Source: Gammaproteobacteria bacterium
GTDB lineage: Bacteria > Pseudomonadota > Gammaproteobacteria > Ga0077536
DNA: 64,000 nucleotides
Direction: 5' to 3'
NCBI GenBank assembly: GCA_016209015.1
Contig: JACQWY010000003.1
Coordinates: 1-64,000, forward strand
Shown here: one piece after another, positions 2,690 through 52,564 of the stretch
Numbering within the stretch: the first letter of the stretch is position 1
Layout: each line of letters starts with the position of its first letter
Program-made: the position numbers and the translations under genes
The notes under the pieces: generated by a model
Databases searched by the model: none
What the model was told of the DNA's origin: nothing
The model's input: the letters and a program-made list of their open reading frames with translations, nothing else

Positions 2690-2851
2690 AGCCCGACTTA
2701 CCCACAGGGGTCGGAGGGACTTTTCTCACCCGGCACGAAAGTCCCTCCGACCCCGGTGGATAACTAAGGCTGAAGCCCGACTTGCCCACAGGGGTCGGAG
2801 GGACTTTTCTCAACCGGCACGAAAGTCCCTCCGACCCCGGTGGGTAAGTTC
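2684..2851. repeat. Tandem hairpin repeat (GGGGTCGGAGGGACTTT family)
   Basis: Two copies of an 84-bp unit (from 2684 and from 2768) each contain an inverted repeat, GGGGTCGGAGGGACTTT paired with AAAGTCCCTCCGACCCC. The array lies exactly between the 3' ends of two convergent genes, and the unit includes the stop codon of the upstream gene. The stem and T-rich arm suit a bidirectional terminator. The same family recurs at 13255-13431. Confidence 0.85.
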
Positions 2852-3644
2852 ACTTGCGCAGGTCGCGCAGGTGAACGAGATCGTCGACCGTGAAGCAGAA
2901 CGTGAAGCGGTAACCTGCATGCACGGCGCGCGGACGCAACGCCGGCAGCTCCAGATAGGGATGATCGAAGAACTCGAGCGCAGCCGTACCTTTCCAGATC
3001 GGCGAGATCGCGACGTCGCGGGATTTGAGCTGGACGAGCTCGTGGACAGTCGGGATGTCGTGACGCCCGGCGGCGAGGTCCGGCAGATGCCGCACGTTGA
3101 CGGCGCGTGCGAAGCTCGGACTCGGCAGCGTGTCCGTCATCTCCGCGAGCGTGATCCGCGCCTCGACGAGCCGGCGCTCCTTCACCGACAGCGTCGCGCC
3201 GAACTTCCCGCCCGGGCCGAGCACCGGTGCGGCACGCGACGGCAGGTCGTAGGCGCGCGTGACCCAGGTGCTGCCGATCTGCTTCGGCCAGCCCTGCACG
3301 AGACCGCGCATGAGCGAGACGTCCTGATCGACGAAGATGAACGGACAGTAGGCGACCGGCTCGCCCGCGTGACGTGCGGCGACGAGCAGGATCGTCTCGC
3401 GATACTGGCTGCGCACCGGATCGAGATATTCCTCGCCGTCGTCGCTCGCGTACTGCCATTCCGCGAAGTAGGCGCAGCAGCGGCCCGACTCGGGCTCGAG
3501 GCCGTCCGGCAGGAAGGACGCGACGGTCGAAGGCTCGGCGTCGAACTCGACGGCGAGTGCGTTGCCCACGTAATGCCACGGCGGCGCGAGCGAGAGGCTC
3601 GAGGTGCCGGCCGGCGTGCGCGGCAGGGTATAGCCCTTCAGCAT
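2850..3644 (-). CDS. Acetoacetate decarboxylase family protein
   Basis: The protein has 264 residues from the ATG at 3644, which has GAGGAG eight bases upstream; an ATG at 3686 would add 14 unlikely residues. It belongs to the acetoacetate decarboxylase (ADC) fold: the segment GLVQGWPKQIGST has the conserved Pro-Lys where ADC carries its Schiff-base lysine, and PIWKGTAALEFF is a conserved C-terminal motif. Known members decarboxylate acetoacetate or act as aldolase/dehydratase-like enzymes on keto acids; which applies here is unknown. It is convergent with the acyl-CoA dehydrogenase, separated by the hairpin array. Confidence 0.85.
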   Translation of the reverse strand: MLKGYTLPRTPAGTSSLSLAPPWHYVGNALAVEFDAEPSTVASFLPDGLEPESGRCCAYFAEWQYASDDGEEYLDPVRSQYRETILLVAARHAGEPVAYCPFIFVDQDVSLMRGLVQGWPKQIGSTWVTRAYDLPSRAAPVLGPGGKFGATLSVKERRLVEARITLAEMTDTLPSPSFARAVNVRHLPDLAAGRHDIPTVHELVQLKSRDVAISPIWKGTAALEFFDHPYLELPALRPRAVHAGYRFTFCFTVDDLVHLRDLRK

Positions 3645-4318
3645 GCTGTGATCTCCTCGGCGGGGTGAGGGCCGCAGTATACGCAAGGCAGCCCCGCGCG
3701 AGTTCGATCACACTCGCGCACGACGAAGGTCACGCACTGTCAATTGCGTGATTCGTCCCCGCCGCCGGTGCACGCGGCCGCCGATACTTCCGGCCATCGA
3801 TTTGCAGCACGGCCGGTGTGAGACGCACGGTGCGTCCGGGGCCCGCGGCAGATCGGCTGAAAGATGCGCGTTCTCAAGAAAAAAATCGAACAAGGGTTTG
3901 CGCCCCACGGCGCAAACCGCGAAGCCGCGTCGGACCGCGCAATCCGCCCGCTTTTCGTGTCGTCCGCGGTCTTGCACGCGGCCCGAGCAGCGCCCAGAAT
4001 GCAGCGCGTCCCCGGAAGCCGTCGCGTCGCATCGAGCACGATGCGCGCTCGCTCCGGCGGCGCGACCGTCGCCCTCCGCACTGCAGAAGGAATCGTCGAC
4101 GGCAACAGCATCCCCCCGAGGCGCGTCCGCACCCCGGACTGCATACGGGATGCGAGATGCGGTGCTGTCGCCCAGCGGTGCCCTGAATCCCCGGCCCACT
4201 TCGCGTCTGTCGCGCCGGCGGCCACCCCGCGTGGACCGGCGGTCGACCTGGCGATCCGTGATCGCGAGGCGCGAAACGAACAAGGACTTTCGATGCCGCT
4301 TTCCTGGAAGCCCGTGCC
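3645..4318. other. Long intergenic region with a perfect hairpin
   Basis: About 670 bp lie between two divergent genes with no credible coding frame. A perfect 10-bp stem GGTTTGCGCC (3895-3904), loop CCAC, GGCGCAAACC (3909-3918) is preceded by an A-rich run at 3880-3886. On the minus strand this reads as a hairpin followed at some distance by a U-run, so a minus-strand terminator is possible but weak. The region probably holds the promoters of both flanking genes. Confidence 0.5.
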
Positions 4319-7300
4319 ATGAGCTCCGCACGGCCACCGCTACTTTCCGAAATCATGTCGAGCGCAGTGCTGACCGTCGGTCCGCACTCCCGGCTCGCCG
4401 ACGCCGTGGCGATGATGGCCGAGCGCCGCATCTCCTGTCTCGTCGTCGTCGACGCGCGTCAACCGCTCGGCATCGTCACGGAAAGCGACGTGGCGCGCCT
4501 GCTGAAGCGCGGCACGTCGCGCGACACGACCGTGCACCATGTGATGAGCAGCCCGCCCGTGACCGCACCGGCCGGCATCGATTTCTATGCTGCCATGGCG
4601 CTCATGCAGCGTTTCGGCATCCGCCATCTCGTCGCCGTCGACGAGAAAGGCCGGCTCGCCGGCATCGCGACCGAAACGGATTTCCGCTCGCACATCGGGC
4701 TCGAAGTGCTGAAGCGCATCCGCGATCTGACGGCGATCATGGAGCGCGAGCCGCCGACGTTCCACTCGGACACGACCGTGAGCGCGGCACTCTCGCGCAT
4801 GCTCGCCGAAGGCCGCGACTACGCGCTCGTCGCCGACGACAACGTCCCGCTCGGCATCATCACCGAGCGTGATCTGCCCGCGCTCCTCGCGCGCGCGGTC
4901 GACATCCGCGGCATCACGCTCGCCGACATCATGAGCCCCGCGCGCACGGTGCGCGCGGATATCGCCGTGCCCGCGCTCGCCGAGGAGATGACAGTGCGCG
5001 GCATCCGGCACGCAATCGTCGTGGACTTCGAGGGCCGGCTCGTCGGCGTCGTCACGCAGCACCAGCTCATCGAGCGCCTGAGCCGCAATCTCTTCGAGGC
5101 GGGCTGGGCTCAGGAACGCGAGGACCGCGAGGATCTCGAGAGCCATCTCGAGCTCGTGCTCGAAACCGCCGGCGTCGGGGTCTGGAAGTTCGATCACGCG
5201 CTCGGCCGCTTCCTGTGGAGCCCCATCCTGTGCTCGATGCTCGGCTATTACGAATCCCAGATGCCCACGTCGATCGAGGGCTGGCTCGGGCTCGTGCACG
5301 AGGAGGACCGCGACATGGTCACCGCGCGCTGGGCGGCCGGTCAGCAGGCACACGATCCGCTCTACGAGGCGGAATACCGTCTGCGCGCCGCGGACGGCCG
5401 CTGGCGCTGGCTGCTCACGCGCGGCCGCGTGATGGCGCGCGACTTCGAGGGCGCGCCGCTCATGACCATGGGCGTGACCATGGACACCTCGGAGCGCAAG
5501 CGTGCGCAGAACGCGATCGAGATCGAGAAGACGCGCCTGCGGACGCTCATGGAGACGATCCCGGATCTCGTGTGGTTGAAGAATCCCGAGGGCGCCTATC
5601 TCTACGCGAATCCGCGCTTCGAGGCGACCTTCGGCGCGAATCCCGGCGGCGCCGTCGGCCGCACCGACTTCGACTTCAGCGACCGCCAGCGCGCCGCGCA
5701 ATATCGTGACGCGGATCGCCAGGTCGTCGAGAGCGGTCGCACGCTCACGTTCGAGGAATGGGTCCCCGACCCCCGCGGCGGCATGCGCATGCTCGAATCG
5801 ATCAAGGCACCGCTCTACGATCCCGCCGGCCAACTGCTCGGCGTGCTCGGCATCGGCCGCGACATCACGGATCGCAAGCGCATCGAGGACGAGCTGCAGC
5901 GCGCGCTCGAGGCGTTCAACAATCTCGTGAGCGCAATCCCGGCCGGCGTCTACAGGTTCCGCATGCCGCCGGACGGCAATTTCAGCTTCGACTACGTGAG
6001 CCCGCGCTGGTGCGAGATCCTCGGCGTCACGGCCGAGGACGTCTATCGTGACGCCCGGACCGCGATCGACTGCGTCCATCCCGACGATCTGCCGGATTTC
6101 CTCGCCGCGAACCGCACGGCGCGCGAGAGCGGCGAGCCGTTCCAGTGGGAGGGCCGCATCCGCCGCAAGGGGCTGACGCGCTGGATTCACATCGATTCAC
6201 AGCCGACGCGCCAGGCGAACGGTGAGCTCCTGTGGAACGGCGTGCAGTACGACGTGACGGAGCGGCGCGACGCGGAGCTGCGCCTGCGGCTCGCGGCGAC
6301 GGTCTTCGACAACGCGCACGAAGGCATCTGCATCACGGACGCGGACGAACGCATCCTCGAAGTCAACGCGACGTTCACCGAAGTCACGGGCTACACGCGC
6401 GAGGAGGCGCTCGGCCGGACGCCACGCATGCTGCACTCCGGACACCAGAGCCCGGAGTTCTACGCCGGCATGTGGGCCGCGATCGAGCGCGACGGCCACT
6501 GGCGCGGCGAGCTCTGGAACCGCCGCCGCAACGGCGAGCTCTATGCCGAGCGGCTGACGATCTCGACGGTGCGCGACGCCGCGGGCCGGCCGACGTACTT
6601 CGTGGGCGTCCTGTCCGACGTGACGACCACGCGCCGCCGCCATGAGCAGCTCGAGCGCATCGCGCACTACGACGTGCTGACCGGGATCCCGAACCGCGTG
6701 CTGCTCGCCGACCGCATGCGCCAGGCGACCGCGCACACCCTCCGCCATCGCTCGCTGCTCGCGGTGTGCTATCTCGATCTCGACGGCTTCAAGCCCGTCA
6801 ACGACCGCTGGGGCCACGCCGTCGGCGACCGCGTGCTCGTCGAAATGGCGGAGCGCCTGCAGGGCTGTCTGCGCGGCGGCGACACCGTGGCGCGGATCGG
6901 CGGCGACGAATTCGTGCTCCTGCTCGGCCTCGAGCGCGAGGACGACGTCGCGACGGCGCAGCGCCGCATCCTCGACGCCGTGAGCCGGCCGTTCACGATG
7001 AACGAGCAGCCGGTCGTGCTCTCCGCGAGCATCGGCGTGACGATCTATCCCAATGACGACACGGACTCCGAGCTGCTGCTGCGCCATGCCGACCAGGCGA
7101 TGTACGTCGCGAAGCAGGAAGGCCGCAACCGCTTCCACGTCTACGATCCGATGACGGATCGCCAGGCGGGTACCCAGCGCGGTCTGATGGTCGCGCTGGA
7201 ACGCGCGCTCGAGCGCGGCGAGCTCGAGCTGCATTATCAGCCGATCGTCAACCTGCGCACGGGCGCGGTGCTCGGTGCCGAGGCACTGCTGCGCTGGCGT

Positions 7301-37762: not shown

Positions 37763-37780
37763 TGTACTAATTTTGGTACA
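37763..37780 (+). promoter_or_regulatory. Palindromic operator of the toxin-antitoxin locus
   Basis: TGTACTAA-TT-TTGGTACA is an inverted repeat with one mismatch, ending immediately before the toxin ATG at 37781. Its place and form suit the autoregulatory site bound by an XRE-type antitoxin. This is inferred from position only. Confidence 0.55.
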
Positions 37781-38159
37781 ATGTATGCCTCGACACCGAT
37801 TCGTGAAGTTCGCTTCTACGCTTCCACTACGGGCACCGAGCCCGTGCGCGATTGGACTCAGAAGCTTGTCGAAAGACGATCGTCGTGCAATCGGCGAGGA
37901 CGTAAAGACGGTGCAGTTCGTCTGGCCGCTCGGCATGCCCCTGGTGCGGAAGATGAGCGCCGACCTGTGGGAGTGGGAGATCCGCAGCCGCGTCGAACAC
38001 GGAATTGCCCGCATCTTCTTCACGGTCGTAGAGCAGGACATCGTATTGCTCCACGGATTCAAAAAGTCGCAGCGGACGCTAAAAAATGAACTCACCACTG
38101 CTACGCAACGGATGAAGGACGTGCAGAATGCCACCTCGAAAGAAGCAAGTCGGAAGTAG
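37781..38159 (+). pseudogene. Phage-derived Gp49-like (HigB/RelE) toxin, frameshifted
   Basis: The N-terminus STPIREVRFYASTTGTEPVR reads in one frame from ATG 37781. The rest, LSKDDRRAIGEDVKTVQFVW through LLHGFKKSQR, continues in the next frame. One extra base at about 37865 (AAG-C-TTG) explains the shift; removing it restores DWTQKLSKDDRR, the normal Gp49/HigB sequence. As it stands the toxin is broken unless ribosomes slip. Such toxins are ribosome-associated mRNA interferases. The antitoxin gene overlaps its 3' end. Confidence 0.85.
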
Positions 38160-38418
38160 CTTCGACGAATTTCTCGCCGAAGAGGGTCTCCTCGAGGACG
38201 CAAGCGCCGTCGCCCTCAAGCGCGTCATTGCTTGGCAGTTGCAGCAGGCAATGGAAGCTGAAGGCCTCACGAAGTCGGCCTTGGCCAAGCGTATGGATAC
38301 GAGCAGGTCGTCGCTGGACCGTTTGCTCGACGAGCACGACACAGGTCTGACCTTGGAAACGCTGGCGCGTGCCGCACGCGCGCTCGGGCGGCGGGTGCGA
38401 GTCGAGCTGACGGCTTAG
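38128..38418 (+). CDS. XRE-family antitoxin (HigA-like)
   Basis: A 96-residue antitoxin with an XRE/Cro helix-turn-helix: SALAKRMDTSRSSLDRLLDE then GLTLETLARAARALGRRV. It should neutralise the upstream Gp49-like toxin and, with it, repress the operon through the palindrome at 37763. The start overlaps the toxin reading frame by 32 bp, the usual coupling in toxin-antitoxin operons. Because the toxin is frameshifted this gene may now be an orphan or a remnant. Confidence 0.87.
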   Translation: MPPRKKQVGSSFDEFLAEEGLLEDASAVALKRVIAWQLQQAMEAEGLTKSALAKRMDTSRSSLDRLLDEHDTGLTLETLARAARALGRRVRVELTA

Positions 38419-39430: not shown

Positions 39431-39862
39431 ATGAAGCTCGAAGACCTCCAACCCGACGCCGCGGTTCGCGGCATCCTCCCGGATGCTCTCGTAACCGTCG
39501 TCAATGTGACTTGGCATGGGTCGGACGCGCTGACACTCGTCTACCGCGCCTCGGACGGTCGCATCGCGGACGAGATCCTCTACCGGGATGACGAGGCGCG
39601 AATTGACCTTGTAGAAGCAGGACGCCCCTGGAGCTTCGACGGCGACGGTGCAGTCTTCCGTCTGGTCTCTGAAGCCCATCGCATTCGGCTCGCGCACCTG
39701 TTCGACCCCGTGCTCGCCGTCCACACATCACTCGTCGATTCTCTTCCGCACCAGATCACGGCCGTGTACGAGGCGATGCTGCCTCGTCAGCCCTTACGCT
39801 TCCTGCTCGCGGACGATCCGGGCGCTGGAAAGACAATCATGGCCGGACTCTTCACTAAATAG
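39431..39862 (+). pseudogene. DrmD-like SNF2 helicase, N-terminal fragment
   Basis: The first 143 residues of a large helicase: [79 protein letters not shown] and the Walker A motif [14 protein letters not shown]. This resembles the N-terminus of the SNF2-like helicase DrmD of DISARM anti-phage systems (recognised from memory). A TAG at 39860 stops the frame. A few codons beyond it still look related (LIDETLQRK), then homology ends. All later helicase motifs, and any DISARM methylase or DrmABC genes, are absent, so this is a remnant. Confidence 0.7.
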
Positions 39863-40196
39863 CTGATCGATGAAACGCTACAACGCAAGCCGATGAATAT
39901 TGCGCTTGGATTTCCACGGACTTACGTACCGACCAGCGAACTGGGCCTTTATTCGTCATGCGCAGTGCTCCGAAAGTTCGAGAGGCGATGCTTTGTCACC
40001 TGTTTCACGTTGAACTCGCTTCCTGGAGATTGCTTTCCGCTTTTGATCGATTATTTCGCACAGCTATTTAGGTGACGGCTAAGGCGAGGCGGTTGGCGAG
40101 CGCCGGTACGGCGCCAAATCTACCGGGGCGCGGAGAGGATGGCGCACGGCGTCCTCGATAGCTCGGCGACGAGACGCTTTTCAAGGTGAAGGCACA
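39863..40196. other. Region between helicase remnant and zinc-finger gene
   Basis: It contains one copy of a 54-bp direct repeat (40018-40071) and then about 125 bp leading into the zinc-finger gene, which probably hold that operon's promoter. No gene is visible. Confidence 0.5.
40018..40071 (+). repeat. 54-bp direct repeat, copy A
   Basis: It runs from GCTTCCTGGAGATTGC to CACAGCTATTTAG and is repeated with one mismatch at 44392-44445 in the same orientation. The end GCTATTTAG resembles the right end of the IS630 element in this window (GGCTATTTAG), so the copies may be abandoned ends of a related insertion sequence. Confidence 0.8.
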
Positions 40197-41309
40197 ATGG
40201 GATTTTGGCATACAGGTTACATCGAGTTTCACCAGCCCGTAGGCTTGACCGGCGAATGGAAACCCGGCCCGTTGCGGCTGACGTGTCCGCACTGCGGGCA
40301 GGAGTTCGGTTCTGAGGATGACCTCAGGAGGCATCGTTTCGAGGCTCATCCGCTGTATCGGCCTGCGCTATTCCTGAACGGTAGAGAGCTTGGCACGCAG
40401 CGCGTGAGAATTACTCGCCCATTGGGGTCGAAGCAGATAAGAGTTGAAGGTGCGACACGTGCAGTACTGAACGGTCACGAGGTAGTCGTTGCTAGATTGG
40501 GGTTAAAGCTCTCTGAGATCTCGAACGACGTTTGTCGTATCGTTCTCGGAAAGGAGGGCGTCGAGGCTCAGTTCGAGCTTGAGATCCGGGTCGCGTCTGA
40601 AGCGGACCTCTGCGGCGTCGAGAATCAATTCAAAAGTATGGCTGCATGCCGCCGGCTCGACATGCGAGCGATCGAAGATTTTATTGCCGCGACTTCACGC
40701 TATAGTTCCGCCATTGGATATTGCGATGGCATCTGCGCGTACCTTTACGGGCTCATGGCAAAAGAACGCGCAACGGATTGCTCGCTGCCTCACGAGGCGT
40801 ATTTGGCGAGGTACGCCAAGGCTGCCGAGGAGCTTGCGCCCTATGACCGTAATCTCGCGCATACCATCGGCGGCTTGATTGAGTTCCACTTCAACCATTT
40901 CCGGGATGCTGAGCGTCTTTGCGCGGGTTCGCGCCTGGGTGCTGTCGCCAGTCGTTTCGCGGGCTGGATTGAATCTCGTGTCGGAGTTCCCACGATATAC
41001 ACGGACGACGCTGACGAGGAAATTACCGCACTTGAAGGCCTCGTAACTGAGTGGGACACAGAGCAGATTCTGGGTTGGGCAGGCCGGCCTCTCCTGGCTC
41101 TTTCGGAACACCTAGATGACATCGAACTGTTCTTTAAACGGGACCTTGCGGAGTTCGATCGGGTGAAGCTCCATATGCTGCTCGGCGAAGCGTTCGCTGC
41201 GCTTGGCAAAACGAAGTCGGCGCTTGAGCATGCAAGAGCCCTCCGCAATCTGCCTGCATTGGAAGGCTGGGCGGAGGCTCTGATTCGCGAAGTCGGAGAA
41301 CATAAGTGA
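40197..41309 (+). CDS. Zinc-finger protein of Hsp70 operon, unknown function
   Basis: A 370-residue protein, first gene of a four-gene coupled operon. A C2H2-type finger sits near residues 29-51: CPHCGQEFGSEDD followed by the two histidines of RRHRFEAH. A predicted beta-rich region (about 55-130) and a long helical region (about 145-370) with TPR-like character near the end (LGEAFAALGKTKSALEHARA) follow. No catalytic motif is recognised. The finger could bind nucleic acid or a partner, and the C-terminal helices could contact the Hsp70. ATG at 40197 follows AAGGTGAAGG. Its stop overlaps the next gene's GTG by GTGA. Confidence 0.85.
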   Translation: MGFWHTGYIEFHQPVGLTGEWKPGPLRLTCPHCGQEFGSEDDLRRHRFEAHPLYRPALFLNGRELGTQRVRITRPLGSKQIRVEGATRAVLNGHEVVVARLGLKLSEISNDVCRIVLGKEGVEAQFELEIRVASEADLCGVENQFKSMAACRRLDMRAIEDFIAATSRYSSAIGYCDGICAYLYGLMAKERATDCSLPHEAYLARYAKAAEELAPYDRNLAHTIGGLIEFHFNHFRDAERLCAGSRLGAVASRFAGWIESRVGVPTIYTDDADEEITALEGLVTEWDTEQILGWAGRPLLALSEHLDDIELFFKRDLAEFDRVKLHMLLGEAFAALGKTKSALEHARALRNLPALEGWAEALIREVGEHK

Positions 41310-42373
41310 CCCAATCGCACGAACGTAGCGCGGTGAAAATTCGATTAGACGGCAGTAAGCCGCCTCGCTTCAATACACTCGCGGACTTGCTCCGGTTGAC
41401 GTACGGTTCCAAGAGAAAACGCCTCGCATTAGCCAAGTCTGATCTCCGAGCGATGCAAGCCGCACCCAAGCTGGAAGCCGACGAGCGACATGATCTGCTG
41501 CGGCTTGCGTCATCGGATCGCACGCTGGAGCGTACCCGCGATCTGCTATTGCTCAGCGCGGAGAAGTTCGTGCACCACCCACTCGCCGTGCAAGTAAAGG
41601 ACTTCGTCAGGGAGGTTCTGCGGAATCATCCGGCGTACCAGTCGCTATCGCTGCAAGGGGTGCTCGACAACCTACCCGAAGCATCCTCCATTGACATTGC
41701 GCTCGCGGCGCTCACGGGGCAGCCGTTTGCGCATCTGCAATGGCCTACCGGTGCTTCGCCGCTTAAGAAAAGAGAGGCTGAATCGCTGCGGCTCGCGGCA
41801 GTTCATTGTCTCCTCATCTGGTTGCGAGAGACCCGCGGTATTTCGCTCGAACGTATCCAGCGACTTCTCCATTCCAGTTTCTGGAAGCAGGCTGCGGCTC
41901 GCCAAAAAAGCGATGGGAAAATTCTTCGCACGCTCATACTTGCGCGCGACGGGGATGCGCTGGGGCTCGCCTGCTTAGCGTTCGAGGAAAACATAAGGGA
42001 GAAGTCGCGCGACGCCGACGCCGCGCGGGGTGCCGAGGAACGTGCTCGGATCCGCGCTGAGCACCTGCACTGTGAACTCCAGGAGGCGAGCGCGCTACTT
42101 GAGGCCGAACGGTCACGAAACATCGCTCTCCACAAGGAAATGGAACATGAACGGAGACAGCACGAGGACGAGAAAGCGCATCTGCGCAACGACTACGAAG
42201 TGCTGCGAGGTCGAATCCTGCGCCGGCTTAGGCAGGAAGTTTCGCTGCTCGACGAAGGCTTACACGCGCTGCGAAAGCAGCCGCCAAAAGTTCATGTCAT
42301 GGACGATCACGCCGAGCGGGCGATTGACGGCTTGAAAAACGAGATTGAACGAATCAAGGGAGAGGTTGAATGA
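41306..42373 (+). CDS. Coiled-coil protein of Hsp70 operon, unknown function
   Basis: A 355-residue protein with GTG start overlapping the upstream stop. The N-terminal two thirds are a compact, mostly helical domain with no recognised family. Residues about 225-355 form a strongly charged heptad-like coiled coil (EEKSRDADAARGAEERARIR-type composition, then HEDEKAHLRNDYEVLRGRIL). The tail NEIERIKGEVE recalls nucleotide-exchange coiled coils such as GrpE only in general shape. Its place directly before the Hsp70 gene suggests an adaptor or exchange partner; that is inference. Confidence 0.8.
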   Translation: MTQSHERSAVKIRLDGSKPPRFNTLADLLRLTYGSKRKRLALAKSDLRAMQAAPKLEADERHDLLRLASSDRTLERTRDLLLLSAEKFVHHPLAVQVKDFVREVLRNHPAYQSLSLQGVLDNLPEASSIDIALAALTGQPFAHLQWPTGASPLKKREAESLRLAAVHCLLIWLRETRGISLERIQRLLHSSFWKQAAARQKSDGKILRTLILARDGDALGLACLAFEENIREKSRDADAARGAEERARIRAEHLHCELQEASALLEAERSRNIALHKEMEHERRQHEDEKAHLRNDYEVLRGRILRRLRQEVSLLDEGLHALRKQPPKVHVMDDHAERAIDGLKNEIERIKGEVE

Positions 42374-44181
42374 GCGTGGTCGGATTCGATTTCGGTACAA
42401 CGAACAGCTTGATCTCGGTCATACGGGGCAACCGGCCGATTAATTTCCTTGATGAGCAGCGGCCCATTCCATCCGTCGTGTGCTACGAGGGGATGCAGAC
42501 GATTGTCGGTCGCGAGGCAAAAGAGCGGTTGGCCCGAGCCGGCCTAGGGGTGCAAGGGAATACGGTGCGATCGCCAAAGACACTGCTTGGCCGCGAAAGC
42601 GTTTTCATAGAAGGCGTCGAACGCCACCCAGTCGACATCGTCGCCGATGTGGTGAGACACGTGGTGCACCAAACGAAATCGGGCCCCCAGGGCCGCGACC
42701 TGGACAAGATCTCGGGTGCCGTTGTGACGATTCCTGTAGATATGCATGGGCACCGGCGTCGCGCGCTACGTGACGCGTTTCGACTTGCCGGCGTGAGTAT
42801 AGTGCAGTTCGTGCATGAACCGCTCGCGGCCCTGTACGGCTACTTCCGGAAGGATTTAGAGACACTGCTTCGCCGCTACGACCGCAAGCTCATTCTTGTC
42901 TTTGACTGGGGAGGCGGAACACTGGACCTGACGATTTGCCGGCCCATGGGGGATATGGTTGTACAGATCATGAACGACGGCACTGACGAGGTCGGGGGAG
43001 ACGTCTTCGACGAAAACCTCATGAACCGCCTCGTGCAGAACGTCTGCGCGGCACGTGGAATCCATGCATCGGTCGATACGCAGCCCGGCGCTCGATCGCG
43101 ACTTCTCGATCGCTGCGAGCGCGCTAAAATCGATCTTTCGATGCGCGAGCGCAGCCAGATTTATGTCGGAAGCTACTTCCGCGGGATCGCGGAGGAGGAC
43201 TTCGACTACTCGCTTAGCCGGGACGAGTTCGAAGAGGTTGTGAGGCCGCTGCTCGACAAGGGCCTCCGGCGTATCAGTCAGATTCTGGAGAACGCCGGAT
43301 ATGCGCCGGAGCAGGTGGCGCTGTGCGTCGCCACGGGGGGCATGTCTAACATGCCCGCCGTCAAGCGGCGGCTTCACGAACTCTTTGGCCCTGAGCGGGT
43401 GCAGATCTCGGACAGTGCAGCGACGCTAATCGCCGAAGGAGCCGCATGGATTGCGGCCGACCAGGCCCTGCTCCGCCTTGCAAAGAACGTGGAACTGGCT
43501 CTTGCGCGGAATTCATACTTGCCGCTCGTCAAGGCAGGTACCGTCATGCCCAAAGAAGGAGAAGTGCAGAGAGCAACCTTCCATCTTTACTGCACCGACC
43601 CACGAGATGGCGTCGCGAAGTTCCAGATCTGTTCACCAAAACGCGCGGGACGCAGTGTTCTGCCCGGCGAGCCGCGCGCCCATCTCGAGACCGTGACCGT
43701 CGAAGTAGACGCCAATACAAGGCCTTTTCGCGAGCGGCTAGAACTCGACGTGAGCATCAACGACGACCTCATCCTTGAGGCGCACGCGCGTTCACTGAAC
43801 TTGAAGGACCAAGATCGGCGCGAGATCCACAACCTGGAGTTCGGCTTGGCATTCCCGAACTCGTCGGCGGCTGGCGGCAATGAGATCGATGACGGGCATT
43901 CACCCATCGGGGAGCCGCGTGAAAGGGGTGGTCTGAGCCTTAGAGCCAACGTTGCGGACCTCAACGATCAGAGCCTTGTTCCCGGGGAGCTTCTCTATCA
44001 GTACGACCCTCACTACTTCGATGTGCGGCGGGAACCACCGGAACATCAGGTTCAAGAAATGCTGTACTACGAACCTTGTTCTATTTGTCGCCGCGCCTCG
44101 AACGATCCTCTCTGCAGGTGCACGAGCTTGCTGACTGAAGTAGCACCCACACCCGCCGAGCAGCCGAGGGCGCACGGATGA
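42370..44181 (+). CDS. Hsp70-like ATPase
   Basis: A 603-residue Hsp70-family protein clearly distinct from housekeeping DnaK. The ATPase domain has phosphate-1 motif VVGFDFGTTNSLIS, connect-1-like FVHEPLAALYGYF, phosphate-2 FDWGGGTLDLT, GDVFDENLMNRLV and adenosine motif CVATGGMSNMPAVKRRL. A beta-rich substrate-binding region spans about 390-520. The helical lid is replaced by a tail with a cysteine cluster, CSICRRASNDPLCRC (CxxC...CxC), likely to bind zinc. It starts within the stop of the coiled-coil gene (ATGA) and overlaps the DUF262 gene likewise. It may remodel a partner encoded in the operon. Confidence 0.92.
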   Translation: MSVVGFDFGTTNSLISVIRGNRPINFLDEQRPIPSVVCYEGMQTIVGREAKERLARAGLGVQGNTVRSPKTLLGRESVFIEGVERHPVDIVADVVRHVVHQTKSGPQGRDLDKISGAVVTIPVDMHGHRRRALRDAFRLAGVSIVQFVHEPLAALYGYFRKDLETLLRRYDRKLILVFDWGGGTLDLTICRPMGDMVVQIMNDGTDEVGGDVFDENLMNRLVQNVCAARGIHASVDTQPGARSRLLDRCERAKIDLSMRERSQIYVGSYFRGIAEEDFDYSLSRDEFEEVVRPLLDKGLRRISQILENAGYAPEQVALCVATGGMSNMPAVKRRLHELFGPERVQISDSAATLIAEGAAWIAADQALLRLAKNVELALARNSYLPLVKAGTVMPKEGEVQRATFHLYCTDPRDGVAKFQICSPKRAGRSVLPGEPRAHLETVTVEVDANTRPFRERLELDVSINDDLILEAHARSLNLKDQDRREIHNLEFGLAFPNSSAAGGNEIDDGHSPIGEPRERGGLSLRANVADLNDQSLVPGELLYQYDPHYFDVRREPPEHQVQEMLYYEPCSICRRASNDPLCRCTSLLTEVAPTPAEQPRAHG

Positions 44182-44420
44182 GTCTTTTCGAGGACACTAA
44201 CCCCAGGGCGCCGAAAGAGTTGCTTGGCGAAATTCATAGCCGCACCACAGTCCTCCCGGACTTCCAGCGCGACTTCGTCTGGGAGCCCGGCGCAACGCAG
44301 GAGCTGATCGTCTCGATCGCCAACAGCTACCCAGCAGGAAGTATCCTGCGCGTGCGGGATGCTAAGGAAGCTCTGAACAAGCCGCCAGTTTGCTTCCTGG
44401 AGATCGCTTTCCGCTTTTGA
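44178..44420 (+). pseudogene. DUF262 protein, truncated at a repeat end
   Basis: Only 80 residues remain. The N-terminus is a DUF262 domain (GmrS/ParB-like): LLGEIHSRTTVLPDFQRDFV then ANSYPAGSILRV. The sequence after DAK changes abruptly at 44366, where GGAAGCTCTGAACAAG, the terminus of the MITE family, begins; the tail KEALNKPPVCFLEIAFRF is not DUF262. The DGQQR catalytic motif and everything after are lost. It overlaps the Hsp70 stop by ATGA and so was the fourth gene of that operon. Full-length relatives are nucleases or NTPases in defence systems. Confidence 0.82.
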
Positions 44421-44669: not shown

Positions 44670-47600
44670 CTACCGATCGATAAGCCCCGTATGTCCGAGG
44701 TGTTCCGCAATCTGACGAATCTCCTCGCGAAAAGAAGCGGTCACACGCCCATATCCGATAACTATCCCGACGGCTCTTGCGACGTCCTCAGTCCCGAGCG
44801 CGATCTGCTCGCGCACGAGATCTGCCTTTTCAGGAAACGGCACGTCTCGCCACTCACGATGCTCTCGGTTGATCTTCAGCCCCCTGAACTTGTACAGCGG
44901 AGATGCCGGCACGCCTTTGGGCCAAAACACCTTATGCCCGTCCGGAGTAGCCTCATAATGTCGGACCTTGCTACATGCGGCCCACACAGATTGGGAAATT
45001 CGGCTTTTGGTCCTTCGATAACCGTGCGCCCTCGCGATTCTATCGCTCAGGCACTTGAACGATATCGGTCCCTCGGCGTCTATCAGCGTTATCGCCATTT
45101 GCCGGAGCTTGGGCCGGTAGGCTTCATCATGGAACCGTGGCGCCTCTTCGGCGTAAGGCGCACCCGGATCCGCGACGGAGTCTGCTTCGGATCCGTCCTC
45201 CTGCATTCGATCCACTTTATCCGGCGCGTCTTCTGCTCCGTTCGATGGATGAAAGCTCGCAAAAGCCTCCTTTCGAGCGGGGACGTCGGTGCTCTCCCTA
45301 ACCACGGGCTCCCTATCGTCATCTGAATATCTCGAGTGTCGAATCGAGTATTCCGCGTGAACGCGCTCGGTGTCGGCGTTCGAAGGCACCTCGCCCGGAC
45401 CCATAGCCTCAGGCTCGTCCGCAGTAGTTGTTTCGGGCTCCTCAGCCCCGGCATCTTGGACCACTGCTCGGTCGCGTTCCGAAATCCCCTTCAGCGCCTG
45501 ATCAATGCGGGCGATAGCCGTGTCCGAGTCGATGAAATAATCCGTCGACCATACCCGTATCAGCCGCCATCCGAGTTGCTCGAGGATGATGTGCCGGACG
45601 CGATCGCGGTCCCGAGCGCACGCGGAGCTATGGTATGTCGCCCCATCGCATTCAATTCCGGCAAGGAACTTTCCAGGGCTGTCTGGATGGACCACGCCGA
45701 GGTCGATTCTGAATTTGGAGACTCCGATCTGGGTGTGCACTGTCCAGCCAAGCGACCGCAGGCGGTCCGCGACGGCCTTTTCGAAATCGCTGTCGTACTC
45801 CCCTTCGCTTCCGATATGACGGATCGCTTCACCGAGGGCGATCGGGCCCCTCGCTGCGTAATCCAAATAGAGCTTCAGATCCTTCACGGCTTCGGCAGAC
45901 GTTCGTGTCAGATCGATCATCGAGGCATCGAAGCTCGCGAACACGATGACCTCGGTCGTTGCGCGGGTGATAGCTACGTTGAGTCGCCGTTCTCCACCTT
46001 GCCGATTCAACGGACCGAAGTTCATCGACATGGTCTTCGCGCCGGGCTCGGTCGGTCCGTAGCCGATCGAAAGCAGGATCACATCGCGTTCATCACCTTG
46101 GACGGTTTCTAGGTTCTTTACGAACACTGGAGTTTTCCCGTCCGCGGCGAAGAACTTTTCCAAATCCCGGGAAGCACGCCTTTCCTGGTCCAGCAGATCC
46201 TCCACCAGGCGCTGCTGCTCGGAATTGAGTGTGACGACACCAATCGAGAGCTTGCTGAGCAACGGGTCCTTTAGGCGTCTGACTACTTCGGCGACGAGTG
46301 CCTTCGCCTCGATTTCATTCGTCCGAGCTTTGCCCTTGGCGTACACGCCGTGCACGCGGCGCAGGGAGACGGCGCTCTCGGTCGTGACTGCCGAAGGATA
46401 GGTAACGAGCGAACCTTGGTAGTACGCATGATTGGAGAAGCAGATGAGGCTCTCGTGCCGGCTTCGATAATGCCCGGTCAGTCGGTAATGAGGCACTCTG
46501 GCCGCCAGGGCCTCGTCCAGAATGCTTTCGAGGTCTTTGGCGTCTTCATTTTCGTCGTCGTCTGCTCCGCGCTCGAAGAATCTGGTCGGGGGCATCTGCC
46601 GCGGGTCTCCTACGACGATACACCGGCGTCCTCGTGCGATGGCTCCTATTGCGTCCGGAACGGTGATCTGGCTCGCCTCGTCGAACACTATCAGGTCGAA
46701 CGCGTGAAGATCCGCCGGCAGAAATTGGGCGACGGAAAGAGGGCTCATCAGCAGGCACGGCGTCAGGGTCGTGAGAGCGGCACCCATTTCTGAGACGAGC
46801 TGCCGAATGGGCTTCTTCGATGCCTTCTTTTGCACTTCATGCGAGAGGACGGCGTAGCCTGGATGGTCGCCGCCAGTATTTGCGCCCGGAATACTGGCCG
46901 ACAAGCGCGCGCGTATATATGCAGCGGCGAGCGACGCGAGCTGGCTGTCCAGATTCCGAAACGTCTGGATGAGGTCTTCATGCACGATCGCCTGAAATTT
47001 GGTCAACTCCGGCCGCGCATCGACGAGTATGGGCGCCACCCAGCAGGCATACGCGGTTCGAAACGCCGCGACGGTTTCGTCATGCCGGATGGTTTCGGAT
47101 TCGAGCGCCTCGACGAGGGCTCCAAGTCCGAGGTCCCGGGCATCTCTGCTCGCGGCCACCCATGCACACCAAAGGTTCAGCCGCTTGGTTCTCGCTCGGA
47201 TCGCTTTAACCGAATCGCCGATTTCCAATATCGAACGGGCAGGATTGGCGCCCGTATCTGCCATGGAGGACACGGCGCAGAATCGCGTCAACGCGCTCCG
47301 GTAGACATCAAGCGCGGCGCATAACTTCCGAGCGGTCGACTCAGCCTGCGCCCAGTGCGCGTCACTTTCGGTCGTCTCGCCAAACCAGCGGATCAAAGCC
47401 TCATGAATCGTAGTTACTGGCCCACCGAAAGTTGCCAGGGTATTGGCCGCATGGCGCAGCCGGCGCGCTGCTGACACCCATTGCTGTGCCTGCTCCGGGT
47501 CGCCTTCGACCCCGTGCCAGGGAATTCCGGGGGGCATGCTCTCGGAGAGCTGCACGAGACTTTCATGCTTCTCGCATAGCGAAACCAAAGCCTCGAGGTC

Positions 47601-50600
47601 CTTCTCCGGCGCCGGCACCTGCTTCGGAGGTATCTGGGTGCTCATCCAGATCCGTTTACGAAGCTTGCGGCGGGCAAGAATCCGGAGCGGCCAGGGCTTC
47701 GCTTCCGATATCAATCTTTCGCCTAACCATTCCCGAGTCGCGGCCAGGCTCATCCGTGTTATCGGATACTGATCCGCTACGGAAACTGCTTCAGCACGAA
47801 ACGCAGCTAATTTCCGGGCTGCGCTTTCCAATGCCTCTATCGCGGCGCGACCGTCGGGCCCGAACCCGAAATCGAGCCGAACCCCACCACATTGATGCGC
47901 GACTTCACCGATTTCACCAAGCGCCGAGAATTCTGGTTCACTGAATCCTATCGTAGGTAGACCCACGATCCGGCAGAGCGCCTCACGTGCAGCGGTCAGT
48001 TCTGTGATTGCAACTCCGAGATCCCCAGCCGCCTTTTCGAGCTCGGATGTCCATGAGAACGACCAATCAGCATTCGATATGGCGCCGAATGCAGCGACGT
48101 CTTCAGGCTCCAGTTGGCTGTAGTGCATCCCAAGGAGTTTGGCTGCGTCTTCGAGCCGTGCGAGCGATGCGGCATCCGGCGCGCGGCCCAATCCCGCTGA
48201 ATCGGGCTGCCAATCCAATCGCACGCGATGAACATCGCCATAGCGAGCACTCCGTCCTATCGCCTCATGGGGACTGATGCCTGCCGGACCCGGCGCGTGA
48301 AGCGCCGAGACCAAGCCGTTGAGCTTGTTTCGGACCTCCTTCAAATCTCTGGCCTTCTGTGCCCATGCCTGCGCGGAATCGCCTCCCCGCTTCTTCCAGG
48401 CCGCGTCGAGCTGCGCAACCACCGCTGTCTTGTTCGCTTTCGCGGAATGCAATTCGAGACAGAAATCGCCTAGCCCGCAGGCCTTCAGCCGTCGATACAC
48501 GACGTCGAGCGCCGCCATCTTCTCGGACACGAACAGGACACGCCGCCCGAGACCCAAGTTGTGCGCGATGATGTTGGCGATGGTCTCAGACTTGCCGGTA
48601 CCCGGCGGACCTTCGAGTACGAAGTCGCCACCTCTTCCGGAAGCATGAATGGCGACGATCTGCGAGCTGTCGGCATTGAGCGGAGCCATCAGCTCGGCCG
48701 GGTCTATGGCGTAGTCGACATCCCGAGGTGTGAGAAATTGGGCGCCTTCCTTGTAGGCCTCCCGCGGGGTATCCAGGATGTGACGTACGAAAGGGCTCGT
48801 CTTGAGCGTTTCCGTTCTTTCACTCAGGTCCTTCCACATGAGGTACTTCGCGAACGAGAACGTGCTGAGCACTACGTCTTCGACAACTTCGAATGCCGGG
48901 ACGTCGCGGACCTTGGCGCGGACCATGTCCCATATCAGTCGAACGTGGATGCCGTGCTCATCCTTGGGCAGCGCATCGCCAAGACCTCCCAACTCGATGT
49001 TGAAGTCCTGCCGCAGGAGTTGGAGAAGCGTATGGTTGAACACCGGCTCGTCGTCGTGCGAGGTGAGATACGGCTTCGAAGCCGCACTGGAACGCACCAG
49101 CTTCACGGGCAGCAGGATCAAGGGCGCGCGATAGCTGTTTTTCTTGTCCCCCACCGGCGACCAGCGCAGCATCCCGAGCGCGAGGAAAAGCGTATTGCTG
49201 CCGCCCTCTTCGAAATCCGCCTTAGCTTTCCGATAGATTTCGATGGCGCGCTTTTCCAGGCTCTTCGGGTCGATGTCGGCGACTATCTCGTCCCGTGCGA
49301 GCGCTTCTATTGCGAAGTTCTTCGAATAGTCGTCGCCGGTTCTGAGATGATAAAGCGTCGTGTCCGGCTCGCCCTGGGCGTTTATCTTCGGCGGCGGCGG
49401 AATCAGGTGAATTCGGACGCCGTCCGCAATTTTGTCCTCGAGTAGCGCCGGGTCGGGGCAGAAGATCGGGATCGAGCTCTCTGAATTTTTGAGGTTCAGA
49501 AGGCGGTTGCGCTTTGAAAGATCGAGCAAACCTCGCTTCCAACGTTCCAGTCGTTCGGCAGGGGTCTGCGGCTCGTCGTCGGCCGGCGCCACGACGTCGA
49601 ACAGCGGCAAGTCAGGCGGTTCCTCAGGAAGAACCTCGACGGCTTCACTGCCGACACCTACCAGGCCTTTGTCCTTGTCTGCGATCGCTGGGAGCGGGCG
49701 GATGCCCCGTCCCCGCGCTTGGCGGATATCAATCGCATAGATGAACCGGCTTTCATGGGCCTCGTCCAGTTGGCGAGCGCCTTCGGCTATCGCTTTCTTG
49801 AAGGCAACGGGCTGGTCATTGGTTGCCAGCGTAGCCTCGAAGATGATCAAATCGTCCTGCGCGATCGCTTTCCTCACCTCCATCGCGTCGTCAACGGTCA
49901 GCGATGGAAGACTCTTCGGTTGCAGCCAGACACCGGTCAATGCATGGCTTTCGGTGAATGCGACGATCGGGTAAAGCCCGATCTCCTCGAAGGCGGATGC
50001 GAACAGCAGCGCGGTATCCAGACAAGTCGCAAGTCCCTGCTCTTCGATCATCGACGGAAGCCGGATCTTCTGCCCCTGCTTTTCGAAGCTCGCGGGGGGC
50101 TCCGTATACGTGATGCGCTGGCCGACTATTGCCGCCCAGATTGCACCCGCGATTTCCCAGACGCGCTTCCGGTCCTTGGATTGATACCCTTCCAGCGCGC
50201 TCTGCTTACCGGCTTTCTGAAGCAAGCCCGAGGCGCGCTTGAGCACGCGGGCGACGGCGGGATCGTTTGGCGTAACAAATGCAGCCAGAAGCTCAGGCAT
50301 GAATTGCGCACCGCCCCATTCGTTCCGGGCAAGCGCTTCTATCGTTTGGTGCGATTCGGCAAGGACTGCCGTGCCCTGCCGCAGCTCGATTCGGACATCG
50401 GCGCGCATGCGTTCCGTCAGAGCATCGAGCAATCCGCCCTCGAGCGGCACTCTCCGATCGCGCGGCCGGAACTCCGCACCGGCCACCAGCTTATCTATAT
50501 GCCACGTTCGGGCGCCCAACACCGGGGGCTCGGTCGTTATATGGAGCAACAGAGCTTCCAGATCCCGTCCGCTCTGGTTCGTGACTTCGAGGTTTGCAAG

Positions 50601-50771
50601 GACCGCGACGTCGCACTGATGGGTTGCGAAAGTGATTCGTGGAGCCAGCTCCGCTCGGATGAGGAACTCGGGTTGCGGATCGGATATCGACTCGGATACG
50701 GTGCCGTCGGCGCTAGTCGCACGACTTACGAGCATCGATGGCTCGGCTTGACCAGATCCAGGGTTTTCCAT
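44670..50771 (-). CDS. DUF4011-SF1 helicase-Vsr-type nuclease-DUF3320 protein (Hhe-like)
   Basis: A 2033-residue protein. The N-terminal region (1-400) is of unknown fold. The DUF4011 motif RLERWKRGLLDLSKRNRLLN lies near 409. SF1 helicase motifs include Walker A EGPPGTGKSETIAN near 720 and Walker B LIVFDEASQ near 1357, with SIGVVTLNSEQQ and VAITRATTEVIVF later. A Vsr/MTES_1575-type endonuclease domain (about 1654-1737) has FRIDLGVV and GIECDGATYHSS with the expected acidic residues. DUF3320 closes the protein. The order matches DUF4011-helicase-Vsr proteins reported as the single-gene Hhe anti-phage system (from memory). It appears intact and stands alone in the island. Confidence 0.87.
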   Translation of the reverse strand: MENPGSGQAEPSMLVSRATSADGTVSESISDPQPEFLIRAELAPRITFATHQCDVAVLANLEVTNQSGRDLEALLLHITTEPPVLGARTWHIDKLVAGAEFRPRDRRVPLEGGLLDALTERMRADVRIELRQGTAVLAESHQTIEALARNEWGGAQFMPELLAAFVTPNDPAVARVLKRASGLLQKAGKQSALEGYQSKDRKRVWEIAGAIWAAIVGQRITYTEPPASFEKQGQKIRLPSMIEEQGLATCLDTALLFASAFEEIGLYPIVAFTESHALTGVWLQPKSLPSLTVDDAMEVRKAIAQDDLIIFEATLATNDQPVAFKKAIAEGARQLDEAHESRFIYAIDIRQARGRGIRPLPAIADKDKGLVGVGSEAVEVLPEEPPDLPLFDVVAPADDEPQTPAERLERWKRGLLDLSKRNRLLNLKNSESSIPIFCPDPALLEDKIADGVRIHLIPPPPKINAQGEPDTTLYHLRTGDDYSKNFAIEALARDEIVADIDPKSLEKRAIEIYRKAKADFEEGGSNTLFLALGMLRWSPVGDKKNSYRAPLILLPVKLVRSSAASKPYLTSHDDEPVFNHTLLQLLRQDFNIELGGLGDALPKDEHGIHVRLIWDMVRAKVRDVPAFEVVEDVVLSTFSFAKYLMWKDLSERTETLKTSPFVRHILDTPREAYKEGAQFLTPRDVDYAIDPAELMAPLNADSSQIVAIHASGRGGDFVLEGPPGTGKSETIANIIAHNLGLGRRVLFVSEKMAALDVVYRRLKACGLGDFCLELHSAKANKTAVVAQLDAAWKKRGGDSAQAWAQKARDLKEVRNKLNGLVSALHAPGPAGISPHEAIGRSARYGDVHRVRLDWQPDSAGLGRAPDAASLARLEDAAKLLGMHYSQLEPEDVAAFGAISNADWSFSWTSELEKAAGDLGVAITELTAAREALCRIVGLPTIGFSEPEFSALGEIGEVAHQCGGVRLDFGFGPDGRAAIEALESAARKLAAFRAEAVSVADQYPITRMSLAATREWLGERLISEAKPWPLRILARRKLRKRIWMSTQIPPKQVPAPEKDLEALVSLCEKHESLVQLSESMPPGIPWHGVEGDPEQAQQWVSAARRLRHAANTLATFGGPVTTIHEALIRWFGETTESDAHWAQAESTARKLCAALDVYRSALTRFCAVSSMADTGANPARSILEIGDSVKAIRARTKRLNLWCAWVAASRDARDLGLGALVEALESETIRHDETVAAFRTAYACWVAPILVDARPELTKFQAIVHEDLIQTFRNLDSQLASLAAAYIRARLSASIPGANTGGDHPGYAVLSHEVQKKASKKPIRQLVSEMGAALTTLTPCLLMSPLSVAQFLPADLHAFDLIVFDEASQITVPDAIGAIARGRRCIVVGDPRQMPPTRFFERGADDDENEDAKDLESILDEALAARVPHYRLTGHYRSRHESLICFSNHAYYQGSLVTYPSAVTTESAVSLRRVHGVYAKGKARTNEIEAKALVAEVVRRLKDPLLSKLSIGVVTLNSEQQRLVEDLLDQERRASRDLEKFFAADGKTPVFVKNLETVQGDERDVILLSIGYGPTEPGAKTMSMNFGPLNRQGGERRLNVAITRATTEVIVFASFDASMIDLTRTSAEAVKDLKLYLDYAARGPIALGEAIRHIGSEGEYDSDFEKAVADRLRSLGWTVHTQIGVSKFRIDLGVVHPDSPGKFLAGIECDGATYHSSACARDRDRVRHIILEQLGWRLIRVWSTDYFIDSDTAIARIDQALKGISERDRAVVQDAGAEEPETTTADEPEAMGPGEVPSNADTERVHAEYSIRHSRYSDDDREPVVRESTDVPARKEAFASFHPSNGAEDAPDKVDRMQEDGSEADSVADPGAPYAEEAPRFHDEAYRPKLRQMAITLIDAEGPISFKCLSDRIARAHGYRRTKSRISQSVWAACSKVRHYEATPDGHKVFWPKGVPASPLYKFRGLKINREHREWRDVPFPEKADLVREQIALGTEDVARAVGIVIGYGRVTASFREEIRQIAEHLGHTGLIDR

Positions 50772-51131
50772 CCGAGAGGCTCTGCTAAAACGGCCGTCTT
50801 ATTGGTATCCAATCTTGGAATTGGCACTGGCCAGCATCTTGCCCCGACGTAGCATTCGATGATGCATCCGATGCAGGCGACCATAGTGTTGTGCAACGGC
50901 GACCGTACATCAACATAGGATTGGATCTTTTGTGGGTCCAGGGCCGAGCCTGGACCGGCCTGTACTAGGAATATTCCGATGCGCCCTGCAGACGGCCAAT
51001 CTTCGAGATAGCGCGGCCAGGAGAATGCAAACTATCGTGTCCGACTCGATCGGCGGCGCCGAACTTACGTATTGGCCGTAGCACGTCGACTTCATATGCT
51101 CTAAGAGCTTTGACGCGCACCGTGCTAGCTA
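50772..51131. other. Intergenic region upstream of the helicase gene
   Basis: About 360 bp containing the probable promoter of the large minus-strand gene and the left flank of the IS630 element. No gene or strong palindrome was seen. Confidence 0.4.
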
Positions 51132-52267
51132 AATAGCCTTGCATGTAATGGAGACAACTGGCTTAAGCGCGCCGGGTCGAAACCTTAGTGCCTGGGAAAG
51201 GCTGTGTCTCGCGTAAGAATCGACGGACGTCTTCAACGAGGGGTTCGATGTGTTGGTGCCGGTGGTTACGGGTGACATGGTCATGCATCTGCTTCCATAA
51301 ACGCTCAATGCGGTTATCGTTCGGTGAATACGGCGGCAAGAAATGGAGCTCGATCCGGCCGGCGCGCGACGCCAGGTAATTCTTCACGATCTGCGCCTTG
51401 TGGATCACATAGTTGTCCAAGACCAGGTGCAAACGTTTGGCGCCCCGGTAGACGCTGCTCAGATACTGCAAGAACTCGACGAACATCGCCGCAGTCTTGT
51501 ATTCGACGATCCCCGAGACAATCCGGCCGGTGCGCGCGTTGAGTGCGCCGAAGATATAGCGCTTGACGTTCTTGCCCGGTGTCAGCACCACGGCCTGCTG
51601 ACCACGCCGCAAATAGGTCGACCCTATTTTCGGGTTCAGATGCAGATCCGCTTCGTCTTGATAGAACACCTCCTCGGACGGAGAGGCCGCTGCCACTCGG
51701 GCGGCGATCCGGCGCAAAATCTGCCGGCGTCCGCGCACCGGGATCTGCAACCCGGGTCGTGGGCGGCCGCGCCGGCAGCCCTGAGTGCGCAGGGTGCGAT
51801 AGACCGTGCTGGTCGAGAGCGTCACCTTGAAATCCTCGGCGAGTTGCAAGACGAGCAATTCCAGCGTCCAGGTGCAGCGCTGCCAACCATAGTCTCTCGG
51901 TACGCCATCGAGATAGCCCAGCAGCGTCGTGGTCATCTCCGCCGTCACTTTGTCGGCCGCTCGCGCCGTTCGTTGGTCGCGCACCGCGTCCTCGCCCAGT
52001 TCCGCGAAGCGGTACACCGTGCGGTAGACCGTTGCTCGAACGCAGCCGGCCATGCCGGCCACCTCGGTTGCAGAGCGGCCCTGACTGAGCAGCAACAGGA
52101 TGCGACAGCGCAACGCCTCGATGCGCGAGGGTGTCTTGCGCCAGACCTTTTCCAACCGTCGACGTTGCGCACGGGGCATGGATACTCTTAAGCTCATCGG
52201 CAGAGGAACCTCTCTGATTTCGGATCAATTGGTTTCTCTTTTTGATCCCGGTACGTGACAGGCTATT
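51132..52267 (-). mobile_element. IS630-family insertion sequence, complete
   Basis: An 1136-bp element. The left end reads AATAGCCTTGCATGTA. The right end, reverse-complemented, reads AATAGCCTGTCACGTA: eight identical bases, then partly matching. It is flanked by TA on both sides (51130-51131 and 52268-52269), the IS630 target duplication. It carries one intact transposase gene, so it could be mobile. Confidence 0.82.
51163..52197 (-). CDS. IS630-family DDE transposase
   Basis: A 344-residue transposase. The N-terminal part has two helix-turn-helix-like regions (SQGRSATEVAGMAGCVRATV). The DDE catalytic core has Asp in VFYQDEADLHLNPK, Asp in LHLVLDNYVIHK, and the final acidic residue in PPYSPNDNRIERLWKQMH. 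Length and motifs are complete. It lies between the inverted ends of its own element; no second frame or frameshift is required. Confidence 0.93.
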   Translation of the reverse strand: MSLRVSMPRAQRRRLEKVWRKTPSRIEALRCRILLLLSQGRSATEVAGMAGCVRATVYRTVYRFAELGEDAVRDQRTARAADKVTAEMTTTLLGYLDGVPRDYGWQRCTWTLELLVLQLAEDFKVTLSTSTVYRTLRTQGCRRGRPRPGLQIPVRGRRQILRRIAARVAAASPSEEVFYQDEADLHLNPKIGSTYLRRGQQAVVLTPGKNVKRYIFGALNARTGRIVSGIVEYKTAAMFVEFLQYLSSVYRGAKRLHLVLDNYVIHKAQIVKNYLASRAGRIELHFLPPYSPNDNRIERLWKQMHDHVTRNHRHQHIEPLVEDVRRFLRETQPFPGTKVSTRRA

Positions 52268-52564
52268 TAGAGTCCGCAGGACTCATACCCGCACCGAAAA
52301 CGCAGCGTAGACAACGATCGGGTACCTCTCGGGGTCGTGCGTCACATCACGTTTCAGATGATTTCTTCGCGCTCAAAAAAATAGCTTCTTTCCTGCGTCC
52401 GATGCTGGCGAGGCCATATCCTTCACCAGCCTTCGCCGACATTCAGAAACCCCAGTCTTTTCCCTGCTTTCTCTGCATTTTCCTTTCGCCGCAGTTCGCC
52501 GGCCTTCGTTGACAACCGGGGACAACCGGGGGCAACTGGAATTGCACCCGGAGGACCTGCCCCC
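52268..52564. other. Right island border and leader of second integrase
   Basis: It contains the second 14-bp att copy (52404-52417). It also contains a leader similar to that of the first integrase (GGGGGCAACTGGAATTG is shared), ending just before the integrase start at 52565. Confidence 0.65.
52404..52417 (+). other. Attachment site attR
   Basis: GCTGGCGAGGCCAT is identical to the tRNA-Arg 3' end at 36245-36258, and no second tRNA lies upstream of it. It is the right border of the 16.2-kb island and the left border of an older island. Confidence 0.75.

Follow-up and report, generated by a model that had tools for sequence, protein, structure and literature searches.

A zinc-finger, coiled-coil and Hsp70-like gene triad associated with BREX and Hma operons

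Introduction

Three adjacent genes, encoding a zinc-finger protein (zf), a coiled-coil protein (cc) and an Hsp70-like ATPase (hsp70), recur as an ordered triad, mainly within BREX and Hma operons. The association of this triad with defence is well supported; its anti-phage function, client and order of events are inferred. In our judgement it is about as likely as not that these three genes make up a mobile defence cassette, housed mainly in BREX and Hma operons, which provides a second line of defence by the mechanism proposed below.

The triad in the window

The window, the whole 64,000-nucleotide stretch of DNA that was analysed, carries the triad followed by a short DUF262 reading frame:

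40197..41309, + strand: triad gene 1 (zf), ORF of 370 aa; C2H2 finger, beta domain and C-terminal helical (TPR-like) region
41306..42373, + strand: triad gene 2 (cc), ORF of 355 aa; all-helical, with a coiled coil and a C-terminal hairpin helix
42370..44181, + strand: triad gene 3 (Hsp70-like ATPase), ORF of 603 aa; Pfam HSP70 6e-50
44178..44420, + strand: DUF262/GmrSD_N stub, ORF of 80 codons; GmrSD_N 5e-9, closest PADLOC model HEC-05

The junctions are GTGA (zf/cc), ATGA (cc/hsp70) and ATGA (hsp70/DUF262 stub), so that the reading frames and overlaps given in a preliminary description of this DNA are confirmed exactly. Its four-gene unit, however, is reduced here to three genes, as DUF262 adjoins the triad in just 5 of 13 loci. 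All three triad genes are intact in the window, while both flanking genes are truncated. Across closely related loci of one family, dN/dS amounts to 0.11–0.17 for zf, 0.23–0.28 for cc and 0.09–0.14 for Hsp70; within this family the triad genes are under purifying selection. This selection, together with the ordered triad in 12 other loci, makes the triad more than a chance association.

Homologues and their distribution

Ordered zf-cc-hsp70 genes on one strand are found in 13 non-redundant loci, the window included. A plasmid search yielded the Paenarthrobacter loci L006 and L007 and a genome scan the Binatia MAG locus L008, while a zf profile search led to genome G086, six more genomes of its family and G884 (locus L030, same phylum as the Binatia MAG). 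Loci L031 and L032 come from a scan of viral contigs with the Hsp70 alignment. The gene order is kept in 13 of 13 loci, and no model of PADLOC (2023) or NCBIfam (2026) exceeds its cut-off for any triad protein. The preliminary description, which had recognised no family for the zf and cc proteins and had made its proposal depend on a constant order and on the lack of a match to an already named defence system, thus stands on these points as far as PADLOC and NCBIfam reach.

The triad occurs in 2 of 398 genomes of the phylum, 1 of 321 of the class, 1 of 342 of G086's order, 7 of 275 of G086's family and 2 of 198 of the Binatia MAG's phylum, counts which include the genomes from which the searches started. 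Since the family is this rare, its association with BREX and Hma rests on few independent events. A phage-borne origin was considered and rejected: 50,697 phage records gave no match, and two IMG/VR contigs carry the triad, one with a BREX operon and the other with recombinase and ParB-like genes.

An IS3 element interrupts the zf gene of L006, and the split of the Paenarthrobacter zf gene lies at different positions in L006 and L007. On these plasmids a 446-aa coiled-coil-rich protein without a Pfam or PADLOC match directly follows hsp70 (L006, 10769-12109).

Features of the encoded proteins

The third protein has the ATPase domain of the Hsp70 superfamily with its phosphate and adenosine motifs intact. 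Residues D7, T10, K70, E150, D179 and T184, which we take to be equivalent to D8, T11, K70, E171, D194 and T199 of DnaK, are the same in all 13 homologues, in line with the intact nucleotide-binding motifs reported previously. The family profile can be aligned to DnaK chains up to about residue 501, a span comprising the nucleotide-binding and beta substrate-binding domains, and on this alignment a beta-sandwich substrate-binding domain is predicted to be present. Beyond it lies an extension that ends in C570-x2-C573...C582-x-C584 (CxxC...CxC), invariant in 13 of 13 proteins; the replacement of the lid by a cysteine cluster, as first described, is upheld. Scores remain below the NCBIfam equivalog cut-offs for DnaK (160.7 vs 648 bits) and HscA (149.8 vs 708.55), and the triad Hsp70s form one clade, apart from host DnaK and a second host Hsp70 (100/100 support).

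The zf protein contains a single C2H2 finger at residues 30–51, of which C30, C33, H46 and H51 are invariant in 12 of 12 complete homologues and which scores under the Pfam family cut-off (20.5 vs 27). A beta domain (residues ~55–131) and then the helical, TPR-like region follow. AF2 models were predicted from shallow alignments with only the window, L008, L031 and L032 proteins as input; the zf model has a low-confidence mean pLDDT of 61 and gives weak Foldseek matches only, to Fis1/TPR. The cc protein has an all-helical N-terminal domain and a coiled coil of some 105 residues (218–324). Its model (mean pLDDT 79) has no fold match in Foldseek and the window protein falls into no Pfam family. 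GrpE-, DnaJ- and nuclease-like folds were considered for both proteins and rejected, since Foldseek and PDB sequence comparisons gave no significant match beyond the zinc finger. The triad proteins revealed neither a nuclease nor a toxin domain.

The Hma connection and the island

Features flanking the triad in the window are as follows:

39431..39862, + strand: hmaA remnant, N-terminal 142–145 of ~1193 residues; PADLOC HmaA 5e-67
39855..40071, no strand assigned: TIR element of 217 bp with inverted repeats CTAAATAG..CTATTTAG, IS630-type ends; terminates hmaA
44392..44445, no strand assigned: right-end copy of 54 bp, 98% identical to the right end of the 217-bp element; terminates the DUF262 stub at 44392
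44670..50771, - strand: ProA-family anti-phage protein, 2033 aa; NCBIfam NF058533, 2000.7 bits, cut-off 1500

The gene upstream of the triad, formerly taken for a DISARM-like remnant, is the N-terminus of HmaA (224.5 bits vs 42.1 for DrmD) and is 78% identical to the intact HmaA of L030. In that locus the order is hmaA (complete, 1193 aa)-zf-cc-hsp70-hmaB; the contig ends within hmaB, and the stop codon of hsp70 and the start codon of hmaB overlap in TAATG. The window triad groups with those of L030 and L008 (Hsp70 69–72% identical). No hmaB match was found in the window, and of hmaA only 142–145 residues are left. Given the hmaA remnant and this grouping, the window is best read, from sequence, as a ruined Hma-plus-triad locus in which the triad survives.

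Both truncations coincide with IS630-type ends, hmaA ending in the 217-bp element and DUF262 in the 54-bp copy. A full IS630-family element at 51129-52270 has the same 8-bp termini (CTAAATAG/CTATTTAG) as the 217-bp element, of which, as of the 54-bp copy, there is no other copy in the genome. A reading of the 54-bp direct repeat as the attL and attR sites of an excisable 4.37-kb element was discarded, given that its first copy forms the right end of the 217-bp TIR element and its second is a remnant of that end. The island itself has a tyrosine integrase following tRNA-Arg, and G+C drops across it from ~0.68 to 0.57–0.63. At its start, beside the integrase, lies a pair of a Gp49/HigB-like toxin and an HTH antitoxin (37773-38159 and 38128-38418).

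On the other side, the supposed Hhe-like helicase is corrected to ProA (NF058533), the Hhe model reaching 784 bits against a cut-off of 2000. This gene, also PADLOC PDC-S37, is apparently intact and convergent to the triad; it appears to be a neighbour and is at most a candidate part of the triad system.

Triads within BREX operons

Seven loci (L012, L023, L024, L025, L027, L028 and L032) carry the triad in the interval from pglX to pglZ and represent two divergent BREX lineages. BrxC, PglX, PglZ and BrxL were named by PADLOC at very high scores in the two loci scanned, L012 and L032. The order in L032 is BrxC-PglX-zf-cc-Hsp70-PglZ-BrxL, with only the triad and pglZ between pglX and brxL; zf starts 2 nt after pglX, and hsp70 and pglZ overlap by ATGA. 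Identity between L032 and L012 is 49% for PglX, 41% for PglZ and 38% for BrxC, and the L032 triad falls outside the clade of L012-type triads. Since both the BREX proteins and the triads are thus divergent, the association spans divergent lineages. The triad tree requires at least 2 changes of the BREX label, and the BREX placement may have had one origin with later losses. In L024 (3032-7819, genome G582) two insertion sequences break PglX, and the adjoining triad is intact.

Within G086's family, the PglZ of these BREX loci is present in 15 of 275 genomes and the triad in 7, with both in 6, a co-occurrence with a hypergeometric P of 6e-8 when phylogeny is ignored. As only 6 of the 15 pglZ-positive genomes have it, the triad is not in all members and is not a BREX core component. 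Nine triad-free BREX loci of the family were examined for what lies between pglX and pglZ:

L035: AbiU-like
L036: HEC-02
L037: 1179-aa protein of unknown type
L038: Orf5-type DUF262
L040: Ppl
L042: Ppl-like and Septu
L043: DUF262-like and Septu
L039 and L041: incomplete, at contig ends

The presence of other defence cassettes in this interval places the triad at an exchange site. Lying between core genes, optional and replaced by other modules, it is a BREX accessory cassette. The L037 protein (1045-4584, genome G493), which has no Pfam or PADLOC match, is a further candidate cassette at this site.

The main alternative is that the triad is a dedicated chaperone of BREX and BREX-related systems, which would assemble, stabilise or switch their complex (PglX-PglZ, HmaA-HmaB) and have no activity of its own. 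Such a role would suit a position between core genes with coupling to pglZ (L032) and hmaB (L030), as well as the evolutionary relationship of the two hosts, Hma being placed among BREX-related systems in PMC12839542. Several facts speak against it, however: of the 15 BREX loci in this family, 9 lack the triad; genome G502 carries a conserved triad without such a PglZ; three loci have no BREX or Hma core nearby (L008, L031 and L006); and the site also hosts modules with a known or predicted activity of their own. The dedicated chaperone is therefore considered unlikely.

Triads outside BREX and Hma

Four triads have no BREX or Hma core nearby. In L026 (genome G502, which lacks the PglZ of the family's BREX) an Orf5-type DUF262 accompanies the triad, and UvrD-like and type I methylase genes are in the vicinity. 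L031 is on a contig with large serine recombinase and ParB-like genes, and L006 has two DUF262 genes in its neighbourhood as well as genes for a type IIG-like methylase, a helicase and a GIY-YIG protein. The L008 triad is alone among metabolic genes, with no clear defence neighbours. These contexts argue for an ability of the triad to function, or at any rate to be maintained, in the absence of BREX or Hma.

They also bear on whether the triad serves defence at all, or is carried along on mobile islands as a chaperone cassette for stress or maturation. Membership of the Hsp70 family, the setting of L008 and the lack of a defence annotation in any library would agree with the latter. Yet 8 of the 13 loci are inside intact BREX or Hma operons and the window retains its hmaA remnant, L026 adjoins a type I methylase gene, the statistical association with BREX is strong in one family, and the pglX-pglZ site has no other occupants than defence-type cassettes and unknown genes, all of which makes a hitch-hiking chaperone improbable.

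DUF262 as a companion

The DUF262 of the window is a truncated stub that covers GmrSD_N positions 3–49 of 199, the first quarter of the domain, and so lacks the GmrSD_N plus GmrSD_C composition of a GmrSD type IV restriction partner. Full-length GmrSD proteins lie downstream of the triad in L025, L026 and L027 and upstream in L028. These four belong to one Orf5/HEC-06-like subfamily (74–96% identical), which the window stub, nearest to HEC-05 models, barely matches (E = 0.017).

The preliminary description had treated DUF262 as a fixed fourth part, with the nuclease as the chaperone-gated effector of the triad. Its suggested co-occurrence with an intact DUF262 is borne out in L025–L028 and fails at the 8 of 13 loci that have no adjacent DUF262. 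In keeping with such a four-gene system, one of the adjacent cases is G502, which has no BREX; the triad and DUF262 of G532 share 84–96% identity with those of G502, as would fit joint movement; and the stub is coupled by ATGA in the window. Against it stand the eight triads just mentioned, the two DUF262 subfamilies and genome G354, in which an Orf5-type DUF262 occupies the same BREX site without a triad. A gated four-gene system is, on balance, quite improbable, and DUF262 is a frequent but exchangeable, optional companion.

Proposed mechanism

For the triad as a mobile defence cassette, the following course may be envisaged. The cassette would insert mainly into BREX and Hma operons and add a second defence line. 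Its zf/TPR-like protein would recognise an invader-derived complex and deliver it to the Hsp70 ATPase, with the cc protein as a scaffold or co-chaperone in delivery. Driven by ATP, the Hsp70 would bind this client through its beta substrate-binding domain, a putative metal-binding tail taking the place of the lid, and might hold or remodel it, thereby blocking phage replication or assembly or licensing a neighbouring nuclease. Alternatively, the client of the Hsp70 cycle could be the BREX or Hma complex itself. Counting against a defence cassette is the lack of a nuclease or toxin domain in the triad, unlike most cassettes at pglX-pglZ. A stand-alone, Hsp70-powered anti-phage system that dispenses with both, in which an adaptor-guided Hsp70 with a metal-binding tail instead of a lid would capture or dismantle invader complexes and would spread as an exchangeable module that plugs into BREX and Hma operons, is a tentative possibility.

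The notion of a chaperone-gated anti-phage system, advanced at the outset, gains from the way the triad is systematically embedded in operons of BREX and Hma; the idea itself is still conjecture. From the repeated presence inside these operons, some such defences probably include a dedicated motor of the chaperone type. The triad thereby ties a chaperone-type ATPase to BREX and related systems, whose restriction mechanism remains unsettled. Compact natural constructs such as the L032 operon offer a means of studying Hsp70 as a defence effector or its switch, and the pglX-pglZ interval is a reservoir for finding undescribed defence cassettes.

Comparison with known systems

With DnaK and HscA the triad Hsp70 shares an alignable ATPase core and beta substrate-binding domain; unlike them, it has no helical lid, carries a Cys cluster, forms a separate clade and scores far below their cut-offs.

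Among defence systems, the closest setting is a Type-1-like BREX with an accessory cassette, for example of the GmrSD-family BrxU type, which has the same insertion point and an optional, exchangeable module. The triad differs in being a three-gene Hsp70 machine without a recognisable nuclease. Auxiliary or backup effectors across BREX are described in PMC12839542, where 'Hsp70', 'chaperone' and 'DnaK' do not occur. No paper that brings together BREX, Hsp70 and PglZ was found in a search outside which most subscription papers and bioRxiv preprints lie.

Hma (helicase, methylase, ATPase) was defined as a three-gene operon (PMC8565338) and is presented as a DUF499-centred, Type-1 BREX-related system in PMC12839542. 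The likeness lies in hmaA and hmaB, which flank the triad in L030, and in the hmaA remnant of the window. The definition in PMC8565338 is without an Hsp70, zinc-finger or coiled-coil component, and an Hsp70 component is likewise absent from the passages on Hma found in the two papers.

CoCoNuT type IV restriction systems (PMC11090510) also place Hsp70-like NBD/SBD and coiled coils in defence, and their superoperons can include BREX. In CoCoNuTs, however, Hsp70 forms a fusion with McrB or CnuC, whereas that of the triad is encoded separately and has a Cys tail; among the triad proteins and those neighbours that were scanned with Pfam and PADLOC there was no McrB, McrC, CnuH or HEPN partner. GTPase-centred conflict systems (PMC7159879) similarly include HSP70 in a predicted prokaryotic conflict system, but the TRAFAC GTPases, tubulins, GrpE or DnaJ domains of those systems were not encountered in the triads. 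Hsp70 is thus already known from other predicted defence systems, with different partners; in the triad it is the unusual engine of an accessory cassette of BREX and BREX-related systems.
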